Under the pieces are notes generated by a model, which was not told where the DNA came from, searched no databases, and saw only the letters and a list, made by a program, of their open reading frames with translations. Shown piece by piece: positions 4,227 through 62,503 of a stretch of 64,000 bases of DNA (position 1 is the first letter of the stretch; the number at the start of each line of letters is the position of its first letter). A program made the position numbers and the translations under genes. This DNA comes from Clostridiales bacterium (lineage in GTDB: Bacteria > Bacillota > Clostridia > Peptostreptococcales > Anaerovoracaceae). The stretch spans positions 124,001 through 188,000 of the forward strand of contig DUTT01000052.1 in NCBI GenBank assembly GCA_012841925.1, written 5' to 3'.

Positions 4227-5635
4227 CCCGTTTCTCCTTCTGCGAAAACGCCGATTTTACTCGCAATCGGGGATGCCCCGGCAAGCGCATGGAGCGCTTT
4301 CTGCATGCTGCAGAACGCCTCCGGGTCGGTTTCCTCTGCATATTTCTGATGAGCAGCATCCATGTCAGGGAAAAACGTCCACGCGTCCTGCGACACATCG
4401 TAATCGCACATCACCCGCACAGAGACGTGTCCCCCGCCATCAACGCCCATCTCACAGATGCTCTTGAGACGCTTTTGCCTTTTATCCGGAAGCTGAATAA
4501 AATGAAACAGGTAGTCAAATGCAGCACCGACTCTCCGCATCGTCCGCTCTGTATCGCCTCCGGTCGCATGCACAATCTCGTCGGCCGCCTCCAGCGGAAA
4601 CTGTGCAGGATCTCCGGTATGGAACGTCAGCTTCATGCGCTTGGTTCCTTTGCCTGCAATTTTGACAGCCGTGCTCAAAGCGATGCCATCTCTTGCTTCC
4701 GCCAGGATGAAGTAGTCCGCATCGCTTCGAAGCAGGCTTTTAGATATGCGCAACAGCTCCTCGCCATCAGCCAGAAGCTGAAGAACAGGCGCACCTCGGT
4801 TGATATCGTGCAGCGGAATCTCCGGATCGGTCTCGACCATAACTCCCTCCAGAGCAGGATCTTCGTAACTCTGCCACGTCGCTAGAAACGTAGTCTTCGC
4901 CGTCCGGACCGCTCCGAGAAACACGACGTTGAATCCAATCCGCACCATGGAGCGGAAAAGAGGAATTGCCTCGACCGGTATCGTTCCCCGCTTCGCTTGT
5001 TCCTCAAAGCTCAATATCGGTATGATGTATCTGCGGAACACGATGGCACCCTGCCCTTTTTTGGCCATCGGCTCCTCGTAAATCGTAACGCGCGTCCCGT
5101 CGAGCAGATAGATCTCGTGATACATCCGATCCGAACGCTGCTCGGGATTGACCAGCAAAAACGCGCGTATCAACTGCTGCTTTCGTTCCTTTGTAATTCG
5201 CTGTTCTTTGAGTGCCATACGCCCGCCTTCCAAAAAGTAGATGCGCTCACCGATAATCTTGGCCGAGCTGCTTTGGGTGTAATCTGTCCCGAACCACTCG
5301 CTGATGCCGGCAAGACCCCAGTTTTCATGATACACAGCGTCGGTTAAGCTCGAATACCAGGCCGGATACTCGACGGTACCGGCGCCCAGCTCGTGGATCA
5401 GCGATTCAATCCGATCTTTAAAGTAAGACACTTCACGCTCATAGCCGATGATGGCTTTTTTCTGGATGTCGAGCAGCGACTTCGTATTTTCTTCTTTTTC
5501 CCATTCAGCAAAGAACGCCTGCTTGACCTGTTCGCAAAGGTGAACAAACGACTGGCCGGCACTCTGCGCATGGACAGAAGAATCCGGCATCACGGACCGG
5601 CTTTTGATATATTCCTGAATCTCGCGAGGTTCCAT
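4223..5635 (-). CDS. Divergent CpaF/TadA-type secretion ATPase
   Basis: 470 residues. The C-terminal half is a T2SS/T4P ATPase: a P-loop-like stretch at 241-249 (GAVRTAKTT), a Walker-B-like segment (DYFILAEARD) and a His box (TFHTGDP). It would power pilus assembly from the cytoplasmic face. The Walker A glycine before the lysine is alanine, departing from GxxxxGK[ST]; Lys247 and Thr248 are kept. The N-terminal 200 residues are a divergent CpaF-type domain. The first ATG (5635) overlaps the upstream gene by 46 nt; the ATG at 5590, overlapping the upstream stop as TGATG, is a serious alternative. Neither has a strong ribosome site. Confidence 0.85.
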   Translation of the reverse strand: MEPREIQEYIKSRSVMPDSSVHAQSAGQSFVHLCEQVKQAFFAEWEKEENTKSLLDIQKKAIIGYEREVSYFKDRIESLIHELGAGTVEYPAWYSSLTDAVYHENWGLAGISEWFGTDYTQSSSAKIIGERIYFLEGGRMALKEQRITKERKQQLIRAFLLVNPEQRSDRMYHEIYLLDGTRVTIYEEPMAKKGQGAIVFRRYIIPILSFEEQAKRGTIPVEAIPLFRSMVRIGFNVVFLGAVRTAKTTFLATWQSYEDPALEGVMVETDPEIPLHDINRGAPVLQLLADGEELLRISKSLLRSDADYFILAEARDGIALSTAVKIAGKGTKRMKLTFHTGDPAQFPLEAADEIVHATGGDTERTMRRVGAAFDYLFHFIQLPDKRQKRLKSICEMGVDGGGHVSVRVMCDYDVSQDAWTFFPDMDAAHQKYAEETDPEAFCSMQKALHALAGASPIASKIGVFAEGETG

Positions 5636-6393
5636 GGATCTTTGACCCTTTCTGCAATCGGTTCTGCGTTCATGTCGTTCAAGATGAGATTTGCGGCGCA
5701 GCGTATATCGGACTCAAAAGACCGGTCGCGATAGTGGATGAGGCACCGGCCTTCCGTTTCGGCCAGTAGCCCCTGTGGCGATTCTCTCACCGTATAAAAC
5801 GGCTGTTCGAAACCATCGAGCCTTTCCCTGATGTAGGAAAGGGAAAACGGATTGTGTTCCCGATAGCGGTTGACGAGGCAGCCAATCGTGGAAACATTCA
5901 ACTTCCGGTACAGCGGGATGAGCCGCTCGAATCGCCGCACGCTGCTCTCGGCCTGAAGCATCACGAGAAATATGCCGTGCGCAGCGAACAGAGACCCCAG
6001 AGCCAGGCCGTGACCGATATGACTCCCGCTGTCGCAGAGTATGAGATCAAAACACTCCCTCAGATGCTTCAGCAGATGATCTGAATGGTTTGGGTGATAC
6101 TTTCCGTCTCCGTTCAGCGGATCAGCCCCGGATATAAAATGCAGGTTTCCTCTGCATCTGGACCGCGCTGCAACATCGTGCACATCGAGCAGACCTTCGG
6201 CCAGTTCCGGGCGGAGGCGGTCGAAGGATTCCTGCGACCCGGTGGTGTAATACGTTCCCGAGTCTTCTTCCGTATGGATGACGAGTACTTTCCAGTCCGG
6301 TCTAGCCCTGGCAATCAGCTCTCCCGCTGACTGGCACAGCATACTCGTGCCGCACTTGTGATCCACGCCGAAAAATGCATAAATACCTCTCAT
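5590..6393 (-). CDS. CpaE/TadZ-like ParA-family localisation protein
   Basis: 267 residues with the fold pattern of a MinD/ParA-type protein: an N-terminal strand and loop (FFGVDHKCGTSM), a central LILCDSGSHIGHG segment and CLVNRY near residue 175. In Tad systems the TadZ/CpaE protein positions the apparatus. The deviant Walker motif here lacks GKGGVGKT, so it may not hydrolyse ATP. The ATG overlaps the stop of the CpaB-like gene as ATGA and has GGAGGGG upstream. Confidence 0.75.
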   Translation of the reverse strand: MRGIYAFFGVDHKCGTSMLCQSAGELIARARPDWKVLVIHTEEDSGTYYTTGSQESFDRLRPELAEGLLDVHDVAARSRCRGNLHFISGADPLNGDGKYHPNHSDHLLKHLRECFDLILCDSGSHIGHGLALGSLFAAHGIFLVMLQAESSVRRFERLIPLYRKLNVSTIGCLVNRYREHNPFSLSYIRERLDGFEQPFYTVRESPQGLLAETEGRCLIHYRDRSFESDIRCAANLILNDMNAEPIAERVKDPWNLARFRNISKAGP

Positions 6394-7028
6394 GATTGCC
6401 CCTCCGCATAAACGATTAGATTCCTGCCGCCCGCTTCAGTTACTGTTCGGTAAAGCTCGAGATATTCTGAAGGCGTGCAGATGATTTCGAGCCCAATCGC
6501 TTCGTTCGCATCGGGCATGCGCTCGAGCATGGCCTCAGCCGCTTGCCCGTCGGCTGAGATCGTTCTCCCGCTTTTATCCTTTATATAGGCCACGCGATGG
6601 GTGCCCAGCACGTCTTCGTCCTGCACCGACACAAGCGTGACAATGTCGCCCGGACGAATCGCCGAACTCATCGATGCAATCCAGGACTCAGGGATTACAA
6701 ACACCGACTCCTCCGGGTTCACATCTCTGCTTTCCTCTGTGAAGAACCGATCGCTCACCTGTTGGTTGGCGACAATCGGTACCGTTGTTACAAGTCCGAT
6801 GATCGATTCCGCCTCTCCCGTCCGCAGTGCGCCTTCGATTTCGTTCTCCGGCAGAACGCGTATTGTTTTCAGATGCGAAGGTAAAATGACCTCTCCGGAA
6901 CGGATGTCTTCTGCAGCGGCCAGAAGCGGTGTAAACAGAACTGCCTCCCGCCCCCGGGTTTCCCAGAGTACAAGAAGACTGAAACTTGCAATCATCATTG
7001 CCAACCCGAGAATCATCCTCCGCCTCAT
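6390..7028 (-). CDS. CpaB-like protein with SAF domain
   Basis: 212 residues from the ATG at 7028 (MRRRMILGLA). An N-terminal membrane helix (about 5-22) is followed by a SAF-type domain (AAAEDIRSGEVIL, then SDRFFTEES) and a GDIVTLVSVQ segment typical of RcpC/CpaB proteins of Tad systems. It acts outside the membrane, in other species near the secretin; no secretin gene is visible here, as in Gram-positive Tad loci. It is the first operon gene, with a promoter about 50 bp upstream. An in-frame ATG at 7076 would place the start inside the promoter region and is less likely. Confidence 0.8.
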   Translation of the reverse strand: MRRRMILGLAMMIASFSLLVLWETRGREAVLFTPLLAAAEDIRSGEVILPSHLKTIRVLPENEIEGALRTGEAESIIGLVTTVPIVANQQVSDRFFTEESRDVNPEESVFVIPESWIASMSSAIRPGDIVTLVSVQDEDVLGTHRVAYIKDKSGRTISADGQAAEAMLERMPDANEAIGLEIICTPSEYLELYRTVTEAGGRNLIVYAEGQS

Positions 7029-7080
7029 GCTATGCCAACCTGCACTTTCCAATTTTCCGATAATACCATATTTTGACATT

Positions 7081-7109
7081 ATCCTACACGAAGCCCTGCT
7101 TTTTGTCAA
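7081..7109 (-). promoter_or_regulatory. Promoter of the Tad-like operon
   Basis: TTGACA at 7104-7109 and TAGGAT at 7081-7086 with a 17-bp spacer, minus strand, about 50 bp before the CpaB-like ATG. Confidence 0.65.
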
Positions 7110-7173
7110 GATATATTTTCCATAATTGTAAATTTATTCTATTTGAATTGGGGTTTTATTCCCTGCCTTCCTA

Positions 7174-7182
7174 TGGTATTAT
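7174..7182 (+). promoter_or_regulatory. Possible extended -10 promoter of nfnAB
   Basis: TGG-TATTAT at 7174-7182, about 70 bp upstream of nfnA. No good -35 box at 17 bp; the TGn extension supports it. Confidence 0.4.
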
Positions 7183-7254
7183 ATGTTCGTTGATTTTCAC
7201 GATTGCCGCAACAAATCCGGCGATTGCGGAATACATCCAAAGGAGGATCGAAGC

Positions 7255-8097
7255 GTGTATAAAATCTTAGAGAAAGAATGTCTCAACCCCACCGTCACGC
7301 GCATGGTAATCGACGCACCTGCGATTGCTGCGAAGGCGGAACCGGGCCAGTTTGTCATCCTGCGCGTCGACGAGAACGGCGAGCGCATCCCGCTTACCGT
7401 TGCGGACTTCGACAGAAAAAAAGGAACGGTCACTATCATATTCCAGATTGTCGGTGCGACGACGGAATTGTTAAACGCAAAGAACGAAGGCGATTCGCTG
7501 CAGGACTTTGTCGGGCCGCTGGGAATTCCATCTGTAACGGAAGGCCTTAAGAAAGTGGCTGTCGTCGGCGGGGGCGTCGGTTGCGCCATTGCATTTCCGG
7601 TAGCGAAAAAACTCCACGAACAGGGAACGGTAGTTCACTCTGTCATAGGATTCAAATCGGAAGATCTCGTCATTTTGGAAGATGAGTTCCGGGCGGTCAG
7701 CGACCATGTCGCGATGATGACCGACGATGGGAGCTACGGCGAAAAAGGTCTGGTCACCGATGCGCTTCGAGCCCTGCTGGATGCCGGAGAACAGTACGAC
7801 GAAGTCATCGCCATCGGCCCGCTGATCATGATGAAGTTTGTCAGCCTGCTTACGAAGGAATACGATATAAAAACCGTTGTCAGCATGAACTCGATTATGA
7901 TCGACGGTACGGGTATGTGCGGCTGCTGCCGGCTGACCGTTGGAGGCGAAACGAAATTTGCCTGCGTCGACGGTCCCGAATTCGACGGTCATCTCGTCGA
8001 CTACGACGAAGCGATTCAGCGCAGTCTCATGTACCGGGAGTTTGAAGAGGAGGCGCACGAACACGTCTGTAACCTCTTTAAGATGGAGGTGAAATAA
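7255..8097 (+). CDS. nfnA: Ferredoxin:NADP+ oxidoreductase, NfnA-type subunit
   Basis: 280 residues of the dihydroorotate-dehydrogenase-electron-transfer-subunit family. An FAD-binding barrel comes first (GQFVILRVDENG, then RIPLTV), then an NAD-binding Rossmann segment (VAVVGGGVGCAIA), then a C-terminal cysteine cluster for a [2Fe-2S] centre (MCGCC...C near residue 235). With the next gene it should form NfnAB, which couples NADH and reduced ferredoxin to reduction of NADP+ by electron bifurcation. The GTG at 7255 has AGGAGG 8 nt upstream. One nucleotide separates the two genes. A sulfide-dehydrogenase (SudBA) role is possible because these families overlap. Confidence 0.9.
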   Translation: MYKILEKECLNPTVTRMVIDAPAIAAKAEPGQFVILRVDENGERIPLTVADFDRKKGTVTIIFQIVGATTELLNAKNEGDSLQDFVGPLGIPSVTEGLKKVAVVGGGVGCAIAFPVAKKLHEQGTVVHSVIGFKSEDLVILEDEFRAVSDHVAMMTDDGSYGEKGLVTDALRALLDAGEQYDEVIAIGPLIMMKFVSLLTKEYDIKTVVSMNSIMIDGTGMCGCCRLTVGGETKFACVDGPEFDGHLVDYDEAIQRSLMYREFEEEAHEHVCNLFKMEVK

Positions 8098-55679: not shown

Positions 55680-56195
55680 TTACTGCGGTATATCTGCTTT
55701 AGACATGAACATGTCCACCAGCATCTGTTTTCCGCTCGCTGTCACAAAAATTTTGTCGTAGGCGCTCTGTGCGGATTCAAACTCCGAGGCGTGCTCGTGA
55801 AGATTCACGAGAAAGTCGGCTTCGACCAGGATCTGATAGTCGAGCCCATCGATGTCAGTATATGTGTGGTGATGGCCCACGAGATATTTAACCCGTTCAA
55901 TCTGCTCTTCTGTATATCCCCCGATGCCGCGCATCAGAGTTTCTGCTTCGGGAGGGCCTTCCAGCTCTTGGTATTTGCCGGCGCTGGAACCGTGCTTCCT
56001 GAGGCTTGGGTGAATGCCGATATCGTGTACGATGGCAGCAGCCTCCAGTACGTGCAGCGTATCAGCATCCAGCCCTTCGAGCAATCCGATGGCCCGGGCA
56101 AATCCGTGGACCTTCACCAGGTGCTGGATGCGGGGTGCATCTCCCCGGTCGTAGTGGATCATCGCCGAAAGCAGCTCTGCGTTTTGTGTATTCAT
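55680..56195 (-). CDS. HD-domain phosphohydrolase
   Basis: 171 residues from the ATG at 56195 (AAGGAGGA 5 nt upstream). The HD metal site is in HLVKVHGFARA, AAAIVHDIGIHPSLRKHG and YLVGHHHTYTDIDG, with an additional Asp in LVEADFLVNLHEH. Small HD proteins of this kind hydrolyse nucleotides or other phosphomonoesters, or act in signalling. No partner domain is present. It lies 118 nt before NhaC on the same strand but has its own promoter. Confidence 0.87.
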   Translation of the reverse strand: MNTQNAELLSAMIHYDRGDAPRIQHLVKVHGFARAIGLLEGLDADTLHVLEAAAIVHDIGIHPSLRKHGSSAGKYQELEGPPEAETLMRGIGGYTEEQIERVKYLVGHHHTYTDIDGLDYQILVEADFLVNLHEHASEFESAQSAYDKIFVTASGKQMLVDMFMSKADIPQ

Positions 56196-56246
56196 ATGTT
56201 CCTCCTTGTTCGTGTAACCCGCAGCAATCCGTTCGCAGATGCCTCT

Positions 56247-56275
56247 ATCATATTGCATTGCCAAACGCGCCGCAA
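56247..56275 (-). promoter_or_regulatory. Promoter of the HD-domain gene
   Basis: TTGCGG (56270-56275), 17-bp spacer, TATGAT (56247-56252), minus strand. Confidence 0.55.
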
Positions 56276-56338
56276 GCGGCAACCGCGCAGTAGGTTCGCA
56301 TAAACGCTGAAAACTATGTCACTTAATCACCAAAGCGA

Positions 56339-56403: not shown

Positions 56404-58383
56404 ATGCATACAAAAATTGTCATTGTTGGTGCGGGATATGCAGGCATTCTGACCGCAAAGAAGCTGGAAAAGAAATTTCGCAAAAACGAAAGCGTTTCCA
56501 TCACGGTCATCGATAAAAATCCCTTCCATGCGCTGCTGACGGAACTGCACGAAGTCGCCGCCAATCGGGTCGACGAAGACAGTATCCGCGTCAGCCTAAA
56601 GAAAGTGTTCGCCGGTCGGAAAGTCGATGTACGGCTCGACACGATTACGTCGTTCGATTTTGACAACAAGAGAGTTATAGGAAAAGCCCAGGAGTACGAA
56701 TACGACTATCTCGTGCTCAGCGCCGGCTCCAAACCGACGTTTTTCGGCGTTCCGGGCGCAGAGGAACACTCGTTTAAGCTGTGGTCCTACGACGACGCCA
56801 TTCAGATTCGTCACCACTTGATCGATCTGTTCCGCAAAGCCTGTCGCATTGCAGACCGCGACGAACGGCGCGCGATGCTCTCCATCTTCATCGTCGGTGC
56901 CGGCTTTACCGGTGTGGAAATGGCGGGCGAGCTGGCCGAATATCTTCCGATCATATGTGACAAGTTCGAAATCGATCGCGAAGACGTCAACGTATCCATC
57001 GTCGACATCCTCGACCGTACGATTCCCAACCTGCCGGCCGAGCTGTCGGTCAAAGTTGAAAAACGTCTGCGCAAAATGGGCGTCAATATCATCCTGGGCG
57101 CGAACGTTACAGAAATCGGCGAAGACTTTATCGAAACGCGAGATGCCAAGTCCGGCGAAGTTACAAGGCGTGTGGCTTCCACCGTCATCTGGGGTGCCGG
57201 CATCGAAAGCGCCGACATCACCGGCGAAGCAGCGAAGGTTCTCGAATCGGCCAACCGCGGCCGGATCAAAATCGATTCGAACCTGCGCTCCGTCGACAAT
57301 CCCGATGTGTTCGTCATCGGCGACAACATGCTCTACACACCTGAGGGCCAGGAGCGTCCGGTTCCCCAGGTCGTCGAAAACTGCGAGCACAGCGCAAAGA
57401 CGGCTGCGAACAACATCGAAGTTCTCATTACAGGTAAAGGTAAGCTGGAAGATTACGATCCGAAGTTCCACGGGTTTATGGTGTGCATCGGCGGACGTTA
57501 CGGCGTAGCGCGCGTGGGATTTCCCGATCGCATGATCAACCTGCCGTCGTTTTTCGCTATGCTCGTTAAGCACCTCGTCAACATGCTGTATTTTGCCCAG
57601 GTTCTCGGCTGGAACAAGCTGTGGAGCTACAGCAAACATGAGTTCTTTACGATTAGGCATCGCAGAAGCTATGTGGGCGGTCACTTTTCAAATCGCACAC
57701 CGAGTTTCCTCCTCGTGCCGCTGCGCGTGTGGCTCGGTGCGACATGGGTGTTCGAAAGCCTAAAGAAAATCGGCGAAGGCTGGATGACCGAACCGAAGCT
57801 CGAAGCGTTCTTCGGAGGCGCACAGGCGTGGTTCGAAAGCATTACAGGCAGCGCCGGCGCTGCAGTCGGAGCAGCTGCGGATGCCGTTACCCAGGCGACC
57901 GCCAACGGCGGTGGAGAAGCGGCCGAAACGGTCGGGACGACCATCTTCAACTGGAACTTTTTCGGCCTCGTCCGCGCGATGTTCGTAAGCGGCAACGAGC
58001 TTGCGGCTTCGTCGATCGGCGACTTTGCGTTTAAGCTCGACATCCCGCTGATGAACTCGTTTCTCAACACATTCGTGCTCGCAAGCAGCGGTACTCAGGT
58101 GGCCATGCAGGGTTTCATCGTAATCGCAGAACTCGTGCTCGGACTCCTGCTCATCGCTGGACTCTTTACGACGCCGGCCGCCGCCGCATCCCTCGTATTG
58201 CAACTGATGTTCGTGTGCACGACGGGCTTGTATCTGGGCACATTCTGGATGATCTTTGCAGGCGTTGCCGTGCTGATCGCCGGAGGACGCTCGTTCGGAC
58301 TGGACTACTATGTGCTGCCTGCGATGCAGAAGCGCTGGAAGAAGATCCCGGTCGTAGAGAGACTGTATCTGTACAATGATTGA
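56404..58383 (+). CDS. ndh2: Type II NADH dehydrogenase with C-terminal DoxX-like membrane domain
   Basis: 659 residues. Residues 1-400 are a type II NADH:quinone oxidoreductase with FAD motif GAGYAG (9-14), NAD motif GAGFTG (165-170), IWGAGIESAD and VFVIGDNM. An extra C-terminal part of about 230 residues contains a hydrophilic Ala/Gly-rich linker and DoxX-like helices (MQGFIVIAELVLGLLLIAGLFTT). It oxidises NADH and passes electrons to a membrane quinone without pumping protons. The membrane-tailed form heading quinone-synthesis genes and flavin lipoprotein genes matches Ndh2 of the flavin-based extracellular electron transfer system of Listeria. AGGAGG lies 6 nt before the ATG. Confidence 0.9.
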   Translation: MHTKIVIVGAGYAGILTAKKLEKKFRKNESVSITVIDKNPFHALLTELHEVAANRVDEDSIRVSLKKVFAGRKVDVRLDTITSFDFDNKRVIGKAQEYEYDYLVLSAGSKPTFFGVPGAEEHSFKLWSYDDAIQIRHHLIDLFRKACRIADRDERRAMLSIFIVGAGFTGVEMAGELAEYLPIICDKFEIDREDVNVSIVDILDRTIPNLPAELSVKVEKRLRKMGVNIILGANVTEIGEDFIETRDAKSGEVTRRVASTVIWGAGIESADITGEAAKVLESANRGRIKIDSNLRSVDNPDVFVIGDNMLYTPEGQERPVPQVVENCEHSAKTAANNIEVLITGKGKLEDYDPKFHGFMVCIGGRYGVARVGFPDRMINLPSFFAMLVKHLVNMLYFAQVLGWNKLWSYSKHEFFTIRHRRSYVGGHFSNRTPSFLLVPLRVWLGATWVFESLKKIGEGWMTEPKLEAFFGGAQAWFESITGSAGAAVGAAADAVTQATANGGGEAAETVGTTIFNWNFFGLVRAMFVSGNELAASSIGDFAFKLDIPLMNSFLNTFVLASSGTQVAMQGFIVIAELVLGLLLIAGLFTTPAAAASLVLQLMFVCTTGLYLGTFWMIFAGVAVLIAGGRSFGLDYYVLPAMQKRWKKIPVVERLYLYND

Positions 58384-59356
58384 TTCAGCGAACGCACAGC
58401 GTCAAACAGCCGAATACGCGACGTATGACGAAGCATTCAGGCGCGTCGCAGCGCTCGTCGACCGTACGCTGACAGCTTCTCCGATCGTGATACGCGAATA
58501 CACATCGCATCTCGCGCGCTCGAACGGGAAGTACCTGCGCACCGCTTCGCTTCTCGCGTGCGCCATGAATACAGATGATCTGGTGCACCGCGATGCCGTA
58601 CTCATCGCTTCCGCCATCGAAATCATCCATCTGGCCACGCTCGTGCACGACGATATCATCGACAACGCCGATCTGCGGCGGGGCGAGCCTTCGCTGCAGA
58701 AGAAATTCGGTAAACGCACGGCCGTCATCTGCGGGGATTACCTCCTGTGCGCAGCGCTGCGAATCGCTTCCGGCGCGGAAGACCGCAGCAGCTACGTCAG
58801 TCGCGGTATCCCCGACTACATGAGCAAGGTGTGCCTCGGCGAACTGAATCAGCACATACACAGCGGCGACAACCGCCTGTCTGTGTACCGTTATCTTAAA
58901 ATCATCGCCGGTAAGACGGCCGCTCTGTTCGAAGCGGCATTCCACGGAGGAGCTCTTCTGGCCGGCGACGATGACCATGCGATTAAAAGGTATGCGAAGC
59001 TCGGAAAATACGTCGGCATGATTTTTCAGCTGACCGACGACTGCATGGATTACGAGGCTACGGAAGAGACGGCCAAAAAACCGGTCCGCTCCGACTACGA
59101 CCAGAACGTTGTCACGCTCCCGCTGATCCACGCATTTCGCAGAGTCGACGGACTGCGCGAAAAGTCGAATGCAGGGCCCATTACGTTCGAAGAGATCGGC
59201 GAAGCGGTCCGCGCCTCGGGCGGCCTCATCTATACGAGGATGGTCGCAAAGAAGTATCGAGATAAGGCGCTCGCGACTCTAGACAGCCTGGAGCTGACAG
59301 ACGCAAAGAGAGAGCGGCTCCTGGACATCCTGAACAAGGCCTACCGTGTCTTTTAA
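58376..59356 (+). CDS. dmkB: Polyprenyl diphosphate synthase (DmkB-like)
   Basis: 326 residues. The two aspartate-rich motifs of trans-prenyltransferases are present: LVHDDIIDNADLRRG and FQLTDDCMDYE, with the GKYLRTASLL and CGDYLLCAALRIAS segments. It makes the isoprenoid side chain for a (demethyl)menaquinone. It overlaps the ndh2 stop by 8 nt, so translation is coupled; the ribosome site is weak. Order and neighbours correspond to dmkB of the extracellular electron transfer locus. Confidence 0.88.
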   Translation: MIDSANAQRQTAEYATYDEAFRRVAALVDRTLTASPIVIREYTSHLARSNGKYLRTASLLACAMNTDDLVHRDAVLIASAIEIIHLATLVHDDIIDNADLRRGEPSLQKKFGKRTAVICGDYLLCAALRIASGAEDRSSYVSRGIPDYMSKVCLGELNQHIHSGDNRLSVYRYLKIIAGKTAALFEAAFHGGALLAGDDDHAIKRYAKLGKYVGMIFQLTDDCMDYEATEETAKKPVRSDYDQNVVTLPLIHAFRRVDGLREKSNAGPITFEEIGEAVRASGGLIYTRMVAKKYRDKALATLDSLELTDAKRERLLDILNKAYRVF

Positions 59357-59413
59357 CCGCGTACCGGGATATGCGCATCCGCAACAGCGGATGGATGGAA
59401 GGAATGAGAGCGT

Positions 59414-60334
59414 TTGACGATCTCCGGCTTTCTAAAATATGTAGAGATCAAGACGAAGATTACGAGTGTCTTCTCGTTTGCGATGATCACCGGCTACCTG
59501 TTTTCCATCGGTCAGCCCGTCGATGTGCAGAAGACGGCTGTGTTCTTCGCAGGTATGTTCCTCTTCGATCTGGCCACGACGTCGATCAACAACTATATCG
59601 ACACGAAGAGCAACGGCCTGCCGCTTCCGGCTTCGCGAAAGTCAGCTGCCGTCATCACGGCATTCCTCCTCGTCGCAAGTGTGGGACTTGGAATAGGACT
59701 CGTGCTGATGACAGACACAATCGTTCTCCTGATCGGTGCCCTGTGCTTTGCGACCGGTGTGCTGTACACCTACGGGCCCCTGCCGATCTCGAGACAACCG
59801 TGGGGCGAGCTGGTATCCGGCCTGTTCTACGGGCTGGTGATTCCGTTTCTGATCCTTTACATAAACATGCCGCAGGGATATTATATGACGGTGTCGCTGA
59901 GCGCAGAAACGCTGAGCGTCGAGCTTCAGATTCTCCCTATCCTCACCGTGCTGCTGCTTGCAGTCAGTCCGGTCTGCTGCACCGCCAACATCATGCTGGC
60001 GAACAACATCTGCGATCTGGAGAAAGATGTCCGGGTCAAACGGCACACGCTGCCGTACTACATCGGAGTGCCGAACGCACTGAAGCTGTTTGCCTTTATT
60101 TACTACATAACATATGCAAACACTGTGCTTCTGGTCATCACGAGAATTCTGCATCCGGTGGCGCTTCTGGCGCTGATCACCATCGTACCCGTGCAGAAGA
60201 ACATAAACATATTTATGTCAATGCAAGATAAGGAAGAAACTTTTCCGGTATCGATTGTAAATTTCATCGCAATCATGAGCGCTCTTGTGCTCGTCATCTG
60301 GATCGGCGGCTTCCTGACCCGCATGGCGGTCTAA
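59414..60334 (+). CDS. dmkA: UbiA-family prenyltransferase (DmkA/MenA-like)
   Basis: 306 residues from a TTG at 59414 (AAGGA 10 nt upstream). Nine or so membrane helices, with the first Asp-rich loop NNYIDTKSN (last Asp replaced by Asn) and the second NNICDLEKDVRVKRHTLPYYIG, typical of DHNA prenyltransferases. It attaches the polyprenyl chain to a naphthoate ring to give demethylmenaquinone. No other men genes lie in the window, so the ring precursor must come from elsewhere. Confidence 0.85.
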   Translation: MTISGFLKYVEIKTKITSVFSFAMITGYLFSIGQPVDVQKTAVFFAGMFLFDLATTSINNYIDTKSNGLPLPASRKSAAVITAFLLVASVGLGIGLVLMTDTIVLLIGALCFATGVLYTYGPLPISRQPWGELVSGLFYGLVIPFLILYINMPQGYYMTVSLSAETLSVELQILPILTVLLLAVSPVCCTANIMLANNICDLEKDVRVKRHTLPYYIGVPNALKLFAFIYYITYANTVLLVITRILHPVALLALITIVPVQKNINIFMSMQDKEETFPVSIVNFIAIMSALVLVIWIGGFLTRMAV

Positions 60335-60375
60335 AAAGACACTCCGCCCCGGGCGTTGGAAACTGATTCGTTATT

Positions 60376-60404
60376 TTACCGGCTCACACAGAATCGGTTA
60401 AAAT
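60376..60404 (+). promoter_or_regulatory. Internal promoter before the FMN lipoprotein gene
   Basis: TTACCG (60376-60381), 17-bp spacer, TAAAAT (60399-60404). It would allow extra expression of the lipoprotein and its flavin transferase. Confidence 0.55.
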
Positions 60405-60430
60405 AAAAACAAATTTTTCGGAGGAAAAAA

Positions 60431-61459
60431 ATGAAAAAGAAAATCACACTGGCACTCGTGCTGGCACTGGCCGTCTTTGCGCTGGCGGCCTGCGGAGGAA
60501 CCACACCGCCCGCAGACGACAACGGAGGCGAAGCAGCTGCACTCAAGACCGGATTGGCCATCGCCACGGGTATCGGACATTCGGTAGACGCCGGCGAAGA
60601 GGATGGGAGCGCACAGGCCGACTCGACAATCGTCGCTGTGACTGTCGATGAGGACGGCATCATTCAAAAATGTGCCATCGACGTCATCGAGACGAAAATC
60701 GCGATTTCTACAGACGGAAAAATCACGACCCCGCTGGATACCGTATTTGTTGGCAAGCAGGAAATCGGTGACGGATACGGCATGAAAAAAGCCTCTGGCA
60801 TCGGCAAAGAATGGTATGAGCAGGCGAATGCCCTCGCCGCCTATGCGGTCGGGAAAAGCGTTGCCGACCTCAAAGCAATCGCTGTAACCGAAAGCGGTGC
60901 GCCGGCAGATACCGATCTGTCCGCAACCGTTACCCTCAAGATCGGCGGCTTTATCGACGCCATCGAGCAGGCCGTCGCTTCGGCTAAGTCGCTCGGCGCA
61001 CAGGCCGGAAACCGCATCGGTATCGGTGTTTATTCGACGATCGACATGTCCACAGAAGCCGGTGACTCCAACGGAACGGCTCAGGCTTATGTGAACGCAG
61101 CCGCTGTTACATTCGATAAGGACGGCGTCGTCACAAGCTGCATCATCGATGCGGCCCAGGCGGATATCGAGTTTACGACGGCCGGCGCGATCGCTACCGA
61201 TCTCGCAGCGACATTCGACTCCAAGAACGTTCTCGGAGACGGATACGACATGAAGAAAGCCTCGTCCATCGGCAAAGAATGGTACGAGCAGGCAGCTGGA
61301 TTTGCCGCTTATGCGACCGGGAAAACAGCCGCAGAAGTCAAAGGTATCGCTCTGACCGACGACGGACTCGCCGCGGATGCCGACCTGGCTTCGACCGCGA
61401 CGATTCACATCGGACCGTTTATGACGAACGTGGAAAAAGCTTATCAGGCAGTAAAATAA
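60431..61459 (+). CDS. FMN-binding lipoprotein with two repeated domains (PplA-like)
   Basis: 342 residues. Signal peptide with lipobox LAAC (Cys21), a short linker, then two homologous domains of about 150 residues. Each holds GDGYGMKKAS or GDGYDMKKAS, IGKEWYEQA, an AAYA-GK segment and a D-L-x-x-T-x-T signature (Thr166/168 and Thr322/324) where a flavin could be attached covalently. It is the expected extracellular electron-carrying flavoprotein of the flavin-based electron transfer system. GGAGG lies 8 nt before the ATG. The ApbE flavin transferase needed to load it is the next gene. Confidence 0.88.
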   Translation: MKKKITLALVLALAVFALAACGGTTPPADDNGGEAAALKTGLAIATGIGHSVDAGEEDGSAQADSTIVAVTVDEDGIIQKCAIDVIETKIAISTDGKITTPLDTVFVGKQEIGDGYGMKKASGIGKEWYEQANALAAYAVGKSVADLKAIAVTESGAPADTDLSATVTLKIGGFIDAIEQAVASAKSLGAQAGNRIGIGVYSTIDMSTEAGDSNGTAQAYVNAAAVTFDKDGVVTSCIIDAAQADIEFTTAGAIATDLAATFDSKNVLGDGYDMKKASSIGKEWYEQAAGFAAYATGKTAAEVKGIALTDDGLAADADLASTATIHIGPFMTNVEKAYQAVK

Positions 61460-61468
61460 GGAGCACGT

Positions 61469-62503
61469 GTGCGTAAAATCCTTTGCGCCCTACTCATTTC
61501 GGGGCTCGCATGTCTGCTGACTGCGTGCCACACAGCGGAAAAAATACGCTACGAAGCTGAATTCCTCCGGCTGTTCGACACCGCAACGAAAGTGATCGGC
61601 TATGCGGACAGCAAGGAGGAATTCTCCACTTTTGTTCAGGATTTGTACGATGAGCTCGAAGCGTATCACAGGCTGTACGATATTTACAACGAGTACGAAG
61701 GCGTCAACAACATCAGGACCGTCAACGAGAATGCGGGCATCCGGCCCGTCGAAGTCGACAAAAGCATCATCGATCTTATAAAGCTGGGGATCGAAGCGTA
61801 CGACTTGTCCGACGGCCAGGTCAACATCGCTATGGGTTCGGTGCTCCGGCTGTGGCACGATTATCGTGTCGCGGGCACATCGGATCCATCCCGTGCAAAG
61901 CTTCCATCGATGGAGGTGCTGCGGGAGGCTGATCGTCACACCGACATCGAAGCCGTGATTATCGATGAAGAAGCCGGAACGGTTTTTCTTACCGATCCGG
62001 CCATGAGTCTGGACGTGGGAGGCATCGCCAAGGGCTATGCCACGGAACAGGTTGTCCTGCACGCGATTGAACGGGGATTTACGGACGGTGTCGTAAGCGT
62101 CGGCGGAAACGTGCGCGCATTCGGATCGAAGGGCCGTCCCGGCACGCCGTGGGGCATCGGTATCCAGAGCCCCGTTGCAGGCGAACCCGACTTGTTTTCC
62201 GTGCACATTCAAGACCGCTCCGTCGTCTCAAGCGGCGGTCACAGCCGATACTACACCGTCGACGGCCAGCAGTACCACCACATCATCGATCCGACGACGC
62301 TGATGCCGGCCGACTATTTTGATCTCGTAACGATCGTGTGCGAGGACTCCGGCATGGCCGATATCCTGTCGACCATGGTGTTCAATATGCCGTTCGAGCA
62401 GGGCCTTGCCGCAATCGAAGCGATCGAAGATACGGAAGCCGTCTGGGTGTTGAAAGACGGCAGCATCGCATACAGCAGCGGTTTTGAAGCGCTGATCGAC
62501 TGA
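61469..62503 (+). CDS. fmnB: FAD:protein FMN transferase (ApbE/FmnB-like lipoprotein)
   Basis: 344 residues from a GTG at 61469 (GGAG 5-6 nt upstream). Lipobox LLTAC near residue 20 puts it on the outer face of the membrane. ApbE motifs: FDTATKVIGY, SLDVGGIAKGYAT, VSVGGNVRAFGSKG, SSGGHSRYY and HHIIDPTT. It transfers FMN from FAD to a threonine of target flavoproteins, here most likely the lipoprotein encoded 10 nt upstream. It closes the five-gene locus. Confidence 0.92.
   Translation: MRKILCALLISGLACLLTACHTAEKIRYEAEFLRLFDTATKVIGYADSKEEFSTFVQDLYDELEAYHRLYDIYNEYEGVNNIRTVNENAGIRPVEVDKSIIDLIKLGIEAYDLSDGQVNIAMGSVLRLWHDYRVAGTSDPSRAKLPSMEVLREADRHTDIEAVIIDEEAGTVFLTDPAMSLDVGGIAKGYATEQVVLHAIERGFTDGVVSVGGNVRAFGSKGRPGTPWGIGIQSPVAGEPDLFSVHIQDRSVVSSGGHSRYYTVDGQQYHHIIDPTTLMPADYFDLVTIVCEDSGMADILSTMVFNMPFEQGLAAIEAIEDTEAVWVLKDGSIAYSSGFEALID

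Follow-up and report, generated by a model that had tools for sequence, protein, structure and literature searches.

In Listeria monocytogenes, the locus for extracellular electron transfer (EET) comprises ndh2, dmkA, dmkB, eetA, eetB, pplA, fmnB and fmnA. Its lipoprotein PplA is reported to bear flavin mononucleotide (FMN) on T143 and T265 (PMC8906456). EetB binds flavin adenine dinucleotide (FAD) and exports it for ApbE; Listeria needs it both to flavinylate PplA and to perform EET, and an external supply of FAD makes up in part for its loss; a ΔeetA strain shows wild-type EET (PMC9973259). In 572 Clostridia genomes, eetB and Rnf share a gene neighbourhood (PMC9973259). Flavinylation-associated EET has been defined operationally by an NADH dehydrogenase with a transmembrane helix no more than five genes away from a secreted or lipidated ApbE (PMC8238504). 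Here we analyse a locus of this kind in a Clostridiales bacterium of the Anaerovoracaceae (assembly GCA_012841925.1, contig DUTT01000052.1). It lies in a stretch of 64,000 nucleotides, hereafter the window, which covers positions 124001-188000 of contig C29 in genome G000, a metagenome-assembled genome (MAG) of 1.61 Mb in 93 contigs that is 89% complete.

We regard it as fairly probable that the five genes ndh2, dmkB, dmkA, a pplA-like lipoprotein gene and apbE form a flavinylation-based EET locus with a divergent PplA/ApbE pair, which would receive its FAD from an Rnf-linked EetB and use external 1,4-dihydroxy-2-naphthoic acid (DHNA). What can be read from the sequences is the gene content, the conservation of a candidate attachment site, the co-occurring ApbE clade, the position and clade of EetB, the discordance of gene trees and the lack of any menaquinone-pathway gene above cut-off; covalent FMN, the electron flow, a shared FAD supply and the use of external DHNA are what we infer. 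The function of the system is ordinary, and its novelty lies in the flavin-tagging parts.

Gene content of the locus

The five genes named in a preliminary description of the window are consecutive and all on the plus strand, and Pfam matches bear out every identity except that of the lipoprotein (Table 1). The gene content also supports the description's view of the locus as Listeria-like in kind. Both demethylmenaquinone-forming enzymes of the Listeria-type locus, DmkA and DmkB, are present, and the genes agree with the operational definition given above: Ndh2 has hydrophobic tail segments (570-626), and a lipobox-bearing ApbE lies four genes away. Like the Listeria locus, the window locus thus combines a membrane-tailed Ndh2, DmkA/DmkB-type enzymes, an ApbE-family flavin transferase and a two-domain lipoprotein. 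Unlike the Listeria locus, it contains no EetA, EetB or FmnA and has a different gene order; its lipoprotein shows neither a match to the PplA model nor an SGAT motif, and its ApbE falls into another clade. The order Ndh2-DmkB-DmkA-lipoprotein-ApbE without EetAB is found again in Acetoanaerobium noterae (Peptostreptococcales), although the window proteins are 44-60% identical to those of that species.

A conserved Thr/Ser site in the lipoprotein repeats

The lipoprotein had been described as having two flavin-binding repeats. Two tandem homologous repeats are indeed present, with a 201-nt segment repeated at 70% DNA identity, while flavin binding as such finds no backing in domain models. The window lipoprotein matches no Pfam or NCBIfam family, FMN_bind (PF04205) included, has no match to the PplA model NF041941 at E 0.1, and contains no [ST]GA[ST] flavinylation motif. 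By contrast, NF041941 gives 436 bits with Listeria PplA, which has SGAT twice (T143 and T265), and the PplA proteins of both Listeria and E. gilvus combine two FMN_bind domains with [ST]GA[ST]. Scattered Pfam matches of 15 lipoproteins to unrelated families were taken as chance.

The repeats nevertheless share a candidate attachment site. T168 and T324 are invariant in an alignment of 15 homologues, whose 30 repeats have a single invariant Thr at the site. A class-wide profile search placed the family in 43 of 391 sampled Clostridia genomes, and a census of 53 Clostridia proteins, which contributed 104 distinct repeats, gave the consensus [DE]-L-x-[SA]-x-V-T (hereafter VT-type). Position 0 is T in 95 repeats and S in 9, so that a hydroxyl group is present in 104/104, and an acid (D or E) stands at position -6 in 104/104. 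Val occupies position -1 in 100 of the 104; position -2 is chiefly S (66), L (17), T (7) or G (7), and position -3 is S (73), A (23), T (6) or G (2). [ST]GA[ST] occurs in none of the 104 repeats. Acid and hydroxyl residue are six positions apart, as in the canonical Dxx[ST]GA[ST]. The window sites, ATVT and STAT, differ somewhat from the family consensus SSVT, and one of 30 class loci, L184, diverges more (SST).

In profile comparisons, an FMN_bind-type profile aligns with the repeats at 94.6% probability, Thr on Thr, and 2kzx matches them at 2.8e-4 with the site Thr on the Thr of SGAT. The likeness to the FMN-bind proteins CPE2226 (3o6u) and 2kzx is weak in both profile and fold, with the attachment Thr aligned; unlike 2kzx with its SGAT motif, the window lipoprotein has no Pfam FMN_bind score. 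A model of the repeat (predicted local distance difference test, pLDDT, 75) has the order E-E-E-H-H-H-H, a sheet followed by helices. The full-length model, built from two sequences, was poor (pLDDT 55), and Foldseek searches with the full-length and repeat models returned nothing at E 0.001.

Two groups of related proteins were observed besides. Some two-domain lipoproteins carry SGVS or DGTQVS, which stand between the SGAT and VT types (L099 12070-12993, L096 5180-6079, L098 7904-8800 and L103 7465-8319). Single-repeat matches of ~170-190 aa (G544:C59, G324:C26, G643:C42, G579:C96, G366:C24 and others), mostly with one internal stop codon, are perhaps one-repeat versions of the lipoprotein in Clostridia.

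The locus ApbE belongs to a divergent clade

With FmnB as reference (N216, S257, R262, H273, D301 and T305), the window ApbE matches PF02424 and keeps the catalytic residues N214, S255, R260, H271, D298 and T302. A tree of 36 ApbE proteins divides in two and places the window enzyme in a clade of 20 (100/100, branch 1.53), to which neither Listeria FmnB nor the Rnf-linked ApbEs belong. The window enzyme departs from the canonical signature HHxxDPxTGxP near the active site, where Leu278 takes the place of Gly. This Gly-to-Leu change is found in 45/46 sequences of the divergent group, while Gly is kept in 17/17 canonical sequences, the two groups having been assigned by best BLAST score rather than by tree; the catalytic residues are common to both (46 versus 17 sequences).

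The two clades also differ in their neighbours. Where the flanks allow a judgement, divergent-clade ApbEs adjoin a VT-type lipoprotein, with G257 as the exception, whereas in most loci of the canonical clade RnfD or a lipoprotein with SGAT, TGAT or SGVS is present. RnfG and RnfD of genome G000 retain TGAT.

We think it unlikely, though worth weighing, that the repeats carry no covalent FMN and instead hold flavin non-covalently or act in some other way, with the locus ApbE modifying another protein. Such a view would suit a lipoprotein without an FMN_bind or PplA match and without [ST]GA[ST], and also the L085 locus of G257, which has an ApbE and no lipoprotein gene; it sits poorly with a Thr/Ser that is invariant in 104 repeats, an acid at -6 kept in frame and an ApbE clade that tracks the VT-type lipoprotein. 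The SGVS and DGTQVS motifs, which are intermediate, speak against it too, as does RnfG, the sole FMN_bind match in G000, with an ApbE of its own close by.

Two loci merit mention in their own right. L085 (G257:C4:3000-22900, 5504-7075) encodes EetA, EetB and a divergent ApbE; a PplA-like gene is missing between the latter two. In L097 (G106:C86:5000-21256, 4422-7779), both ApbE types stand side by side and a VT-type lipoprotein accompanies them, which makes this genome a natural test of target choice.

EetB is encoded beside Rnf rather than in the locus

The preliminary description called the system EetAB-less. This is true of the locus, where only 96 bp lie between the DmkA and lipoprotein genes and this gap (60335..60430) holds no EetAB remnant, but not of the genome. 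G000 has one PF07009 (EetA) and one PF07456 (EetB) match, both at the end of contig C43, where the pair adjoins an ApbE and rnfBAEGDC; hence the view that the system as such is EetAB-less finds no support. The pair sits in an Rnf-linked eetB/apbE cluster of the kind known from Clostridia (PMC9973259), and differs from that known cluster in that its EetB is proposed to supply an EET-type ApbE in addition to the Rnf-linked one. Misassembly is an unlikely cause of the missing genes, the locus being interior to a 192-kb contig and its arrangement recurring in G252, G021, G094, G009 and A. noterae.

The position of EetB in relatives follows a pattern. The genus mates G148 and G150 have one EetA/EetB pair in an Ndh2-DmkB-DmkA-EetA-EetB-PplA locus and a second, Rnf-linked pair, and the Listeria-like gene set plus EetAB is found in genus mates and many family members. 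In 5/5 sampled genomes with EetAB-less loci (G000, G252, G021, G094 and G009), EetB lies outside the locus, beside Rnf in G252 and in other places in G021, G094 and G009. G009, a genome of the same order as G000, has a stand-alone EetB, unlike the Rnf-linked pair of G000. The ApbE proteins of G009 and A. noterae are nearly identical, which suggests Peptostreptococcales as the order of G000 too. In G209, G203, G215, G288, G292 and G317, six well-assembled genomes whose locus includes EetAB, that EetB is the sole copy, and Rnf is present in four of them. In the EetB tree, locus copies and Rnf-linked or stand-alone copies form separate clades (100/99), and the sole copy of G000 groups with the Rnf-linked type; some long branches meet (tool warning), which leaves the finer joins unsure. 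A move of the locus EetAB to Rnf was rejected, as EetB beside Rnf falls outside the clade of locus copies and groups with that of the genus mates.

It had further been suggested that a DoxX-like extension of Ndh2 might take over a membrane electron hand-over by EetAB. The extension exists, with a weak DoxD match in the window (E 0.007). However, the window-type tail is homologous to that of Listeria and Enterococcus (hhalign probability 99.8, E 2e-28), the Listeria tail matches Pfam DoxX (PF07681) above cut-off, and EetAB-containing relatives have such a tail as well. By sequence, the DoxX-like tail is a standard part of EET Ndh2 and not a compensating feature, and a special role for it was rejected on these grounds. 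Since EetB is a FAD exporter and the Listeria ΔeetA strain retains wild-type EET, no membrane electron hand-over is missing or has to be replaced. A truly EetAB-less EET system with the Ndh2 tail as a substitute, for which the EetAB-free locus and the tail itself might speak, is therefore very hard to sustain: the genome has an EetA/EetB-type pair, and Listeria and EetAB-containing relatives have the identical kind of tail. The role of the genes absent from the locus would be FAD supply, not electron transport, and a single copy could suffice for two ApbEs. If a single FAD exporter is enough for two flavinylation systems, eetB need not be in the EET locus.

DHNA would come from outside

No quinone pathway above cut-off was found in G000: its MenD and MenB matches all fall under the family cut-offs and were read as related enzymes of other pathways, and no MqnA or MqnD was found. 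Among the relatives tested, which include family members with full loci, none has MenD or MenB above cut-off, and two show a marginal PF02621 match. According to the preliminary description, the lack of a quinone pathway together with a lack of FMN on the lipoprotein would refute EET. The first of these, seen here at the cut-offs used, does not refute EET, since Lactiplantibacillus plantarum has an incomplete DHNA pathway and performs EET with external DHNA (PMC8837199). This precedent, together with the lack of any men or mqn gene above cut-off, makes an external source likely, and DHNA is probably taken up from outside.

These results also bear on whether the locus is a decaying, non-functional remnant of a horizontal transfer that has lost FAD export in a genome that does not make DHNA. 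We hold this to be improbable. The loss of EetAB from the locus, the lack of men or mqn genes above cut-off and window sites (ATVT, STAT) that stray from the family consensus would be expected of a remnant, but all five open reading frames (ORFs) are intact, the active-site residues of ApbE are kept and EetB is available in trans. Moreover, family members with full loci are likewise without MenD or MenB above cut-off, so that external DHNA looks like the family rule.

The locus may have been gained horizontally

Gene trees of G000 disagree with each other. In the RnfD tree it joins its genus mates (79-80% identity, 100/100), while in the Ndh2 tree its neighbours are G226 (80% identity) and G268 (75%), which belong to another genus (100/99), its Ndh2 being 54% identical to that of the genus mates. 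The placement of ApbE agrees with that of Ndh2 (96/83). EetB occurs with the lipoprotein and ApbE in G226 and G155, and EetAB-less loci are found in at least three separate places in the Ndh2 tree. This conflict between Ndh2 and RnfD suggests horizontal acquisition, and the simplest reading of the trees is a gain of the locus followed by loss of EetAB. Alternatively, differential loss of old paralogues may account for the same discordance.

Coordinates and surroundings of the locus

Table 1 Positions of the locus features in the window
Feature	Positions	Strand	Basis or remark
Ndh2 (type II NADH dehydrogenase, 659 aa, C-terminal membrane tail)	56404..58383	+	Pyr_redox_2 1.1e-42; best PDB matches are NDH-2 structures
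Ndh2 C-terminal DoxX/DoxD-like membrane tail	57601..58383	+	homologous to Listeria/Enterococcus Ndh2 tail (hhalign); hydropathy
DmkB, polyprenyl diphosphate synthase	58376..59356	+	PF00348 2.7e-55; aspartate-rich motifs HDDIID, DDCMD
DmkA, DHNA polyprenyltransferase, TTG start at 59414	59414..60334	+	UbiA 1.1e-19; NF004752 3.9e-68, under curated cut-off
dmkA-pplA gap	60335..60430	.	site of EetA and EetB in most relatives
PplA-like two-repeat lipoprotein, 342 aa, lipobox LAAC	60431..61459	+	Clostridia-wide family without [ST]GA[ST]
Repeat 1, predicted flavin-attachment site D162-LSATV-T168	60914..60934	+	conserved Thr/Ser; aligned on Thr of SGAT/TGAT
Repeat 2, predicted flavin-attachment site D318-LASTA-T324	61382..61402	+	same basis as repeat 1 site
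ApbE-type FAD:protein FMN transferase (lipoprotein), divergent clade	61469..62503	+	PF02424 3.4e-61; Listeria FmnB 7esa 4.2e-35
ApbE Leu278 codon	62300..62302	+	place of Gly in canonical HHxxDPxTGxP (FmnB G280)

The start of the DmkB ORF overlaps the end of ndh2 by 8 bp, and the gap between the DmkA and lipoprotein genes contains a weak promoter-like match. Of 148 genomes sampled from the order, 32 have Ndh2 relatives; a scan of named genomes with Ndh2 yielded just three loci. In genus mates, a Crp/Fnr-like regulator (L081 3-605; L082 131-910, minus strand) is divergent from ndh2, and an HD-domain-like protein (55680-56282) stands in its place in the window. The EET locus L087 (G198:C34, 7597-10582) has no dmkA match between dmkB and eetA. 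The records NZ_CP154629.1, NZ_CP030101.1 and NZ_LR134400.1, filed as plasmids, look chromosomal (2.6 and 2.9 Mb, or ribosomal protein genes).

Discussion

We propose a mechanistic model for this EET locus. Ndh2 would oxidise NADH and reduce demethylmenaquinone, which DmkB and DmkA would form from DHNA that is most likely external. From the quinol, electrons would pass to a surface lipoprotein with two covalent flavins and on to external acceptors. The locus ApbE would put FMN on Thr168 and Thr324 of this lipoprotein, the degenerate site [DE]-L-x-[SA]-x-V-T standing in for Dxx[ST]GA[ST], and ApbE and lipoprotein would be a co-diverged pair across Clostridia. The sole EetB-type energy-coupling factor (ECF) S subunit of the genome, beside Rnf, would export FAD for the flavinylation of both Rnf and the EET system. 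The locus itself probably arrived by horizontal transfer from a donor lineage whose locus included EetAB, which would then have been lost as redundant.

Several points weigh against this model. Covalent FMN on the lipoprotein is predicted indirectly, for a protein without the [ST]GA[ST] motif, and the fold comparison is weak, as the fit of the repeat model to FMN_bind 3o6u (Z 6.6) is tied with that to IscU-like folds (up to 7.4). Single G-to-A or A-to-V changes cut flavinylation of a Klebsiella substrate to about half (PMC12052999). No dedicated FmnA gene was identified in the locus or the genome, which has general ECF subunits only, namely two ATPases and a CbiQ/EcfT protein on contig C60. 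The genomes with the EetB pattern described above are related, and their counts are not independent. A second EetB, FmnA or men genes could sit in the missing part of the 89% complete MAG.

In a broader form, the proposal is that a Clostridia-wide ApbE branch marked by the Gly-to-Leu change recognises [DE]-L-x-[SA]-x-V-[T/S] on two-repeat lipoproteins, such that a cell would have two flavinylation codes, TGAT for Rnf and the VT type for EET, and one exchangeable FAD exporter, EetB. We give this extended proposal an even chance. No literature on the non-canonical ApbE motif or on EET in Peptostreptococcales was found in a search whose coverage did not extend to subscription journals.

Surveys of flavinylated proteins rely on ApbE, FMN_bind and [ST]GA[ST], and the Pfam and NCBIfam models applied here fail to pick out any of these lipoproteins as a flavoprotein, despite the spread of the family in Clostridia. 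The pattern of EetB copies leads to the testable idea of one FAD exporter for two flavinylation systems. If FMN is indeed attached to the VT-type site, the target motif of flavinylation would have to be widened, and more anaerobes would be able to export electrons.

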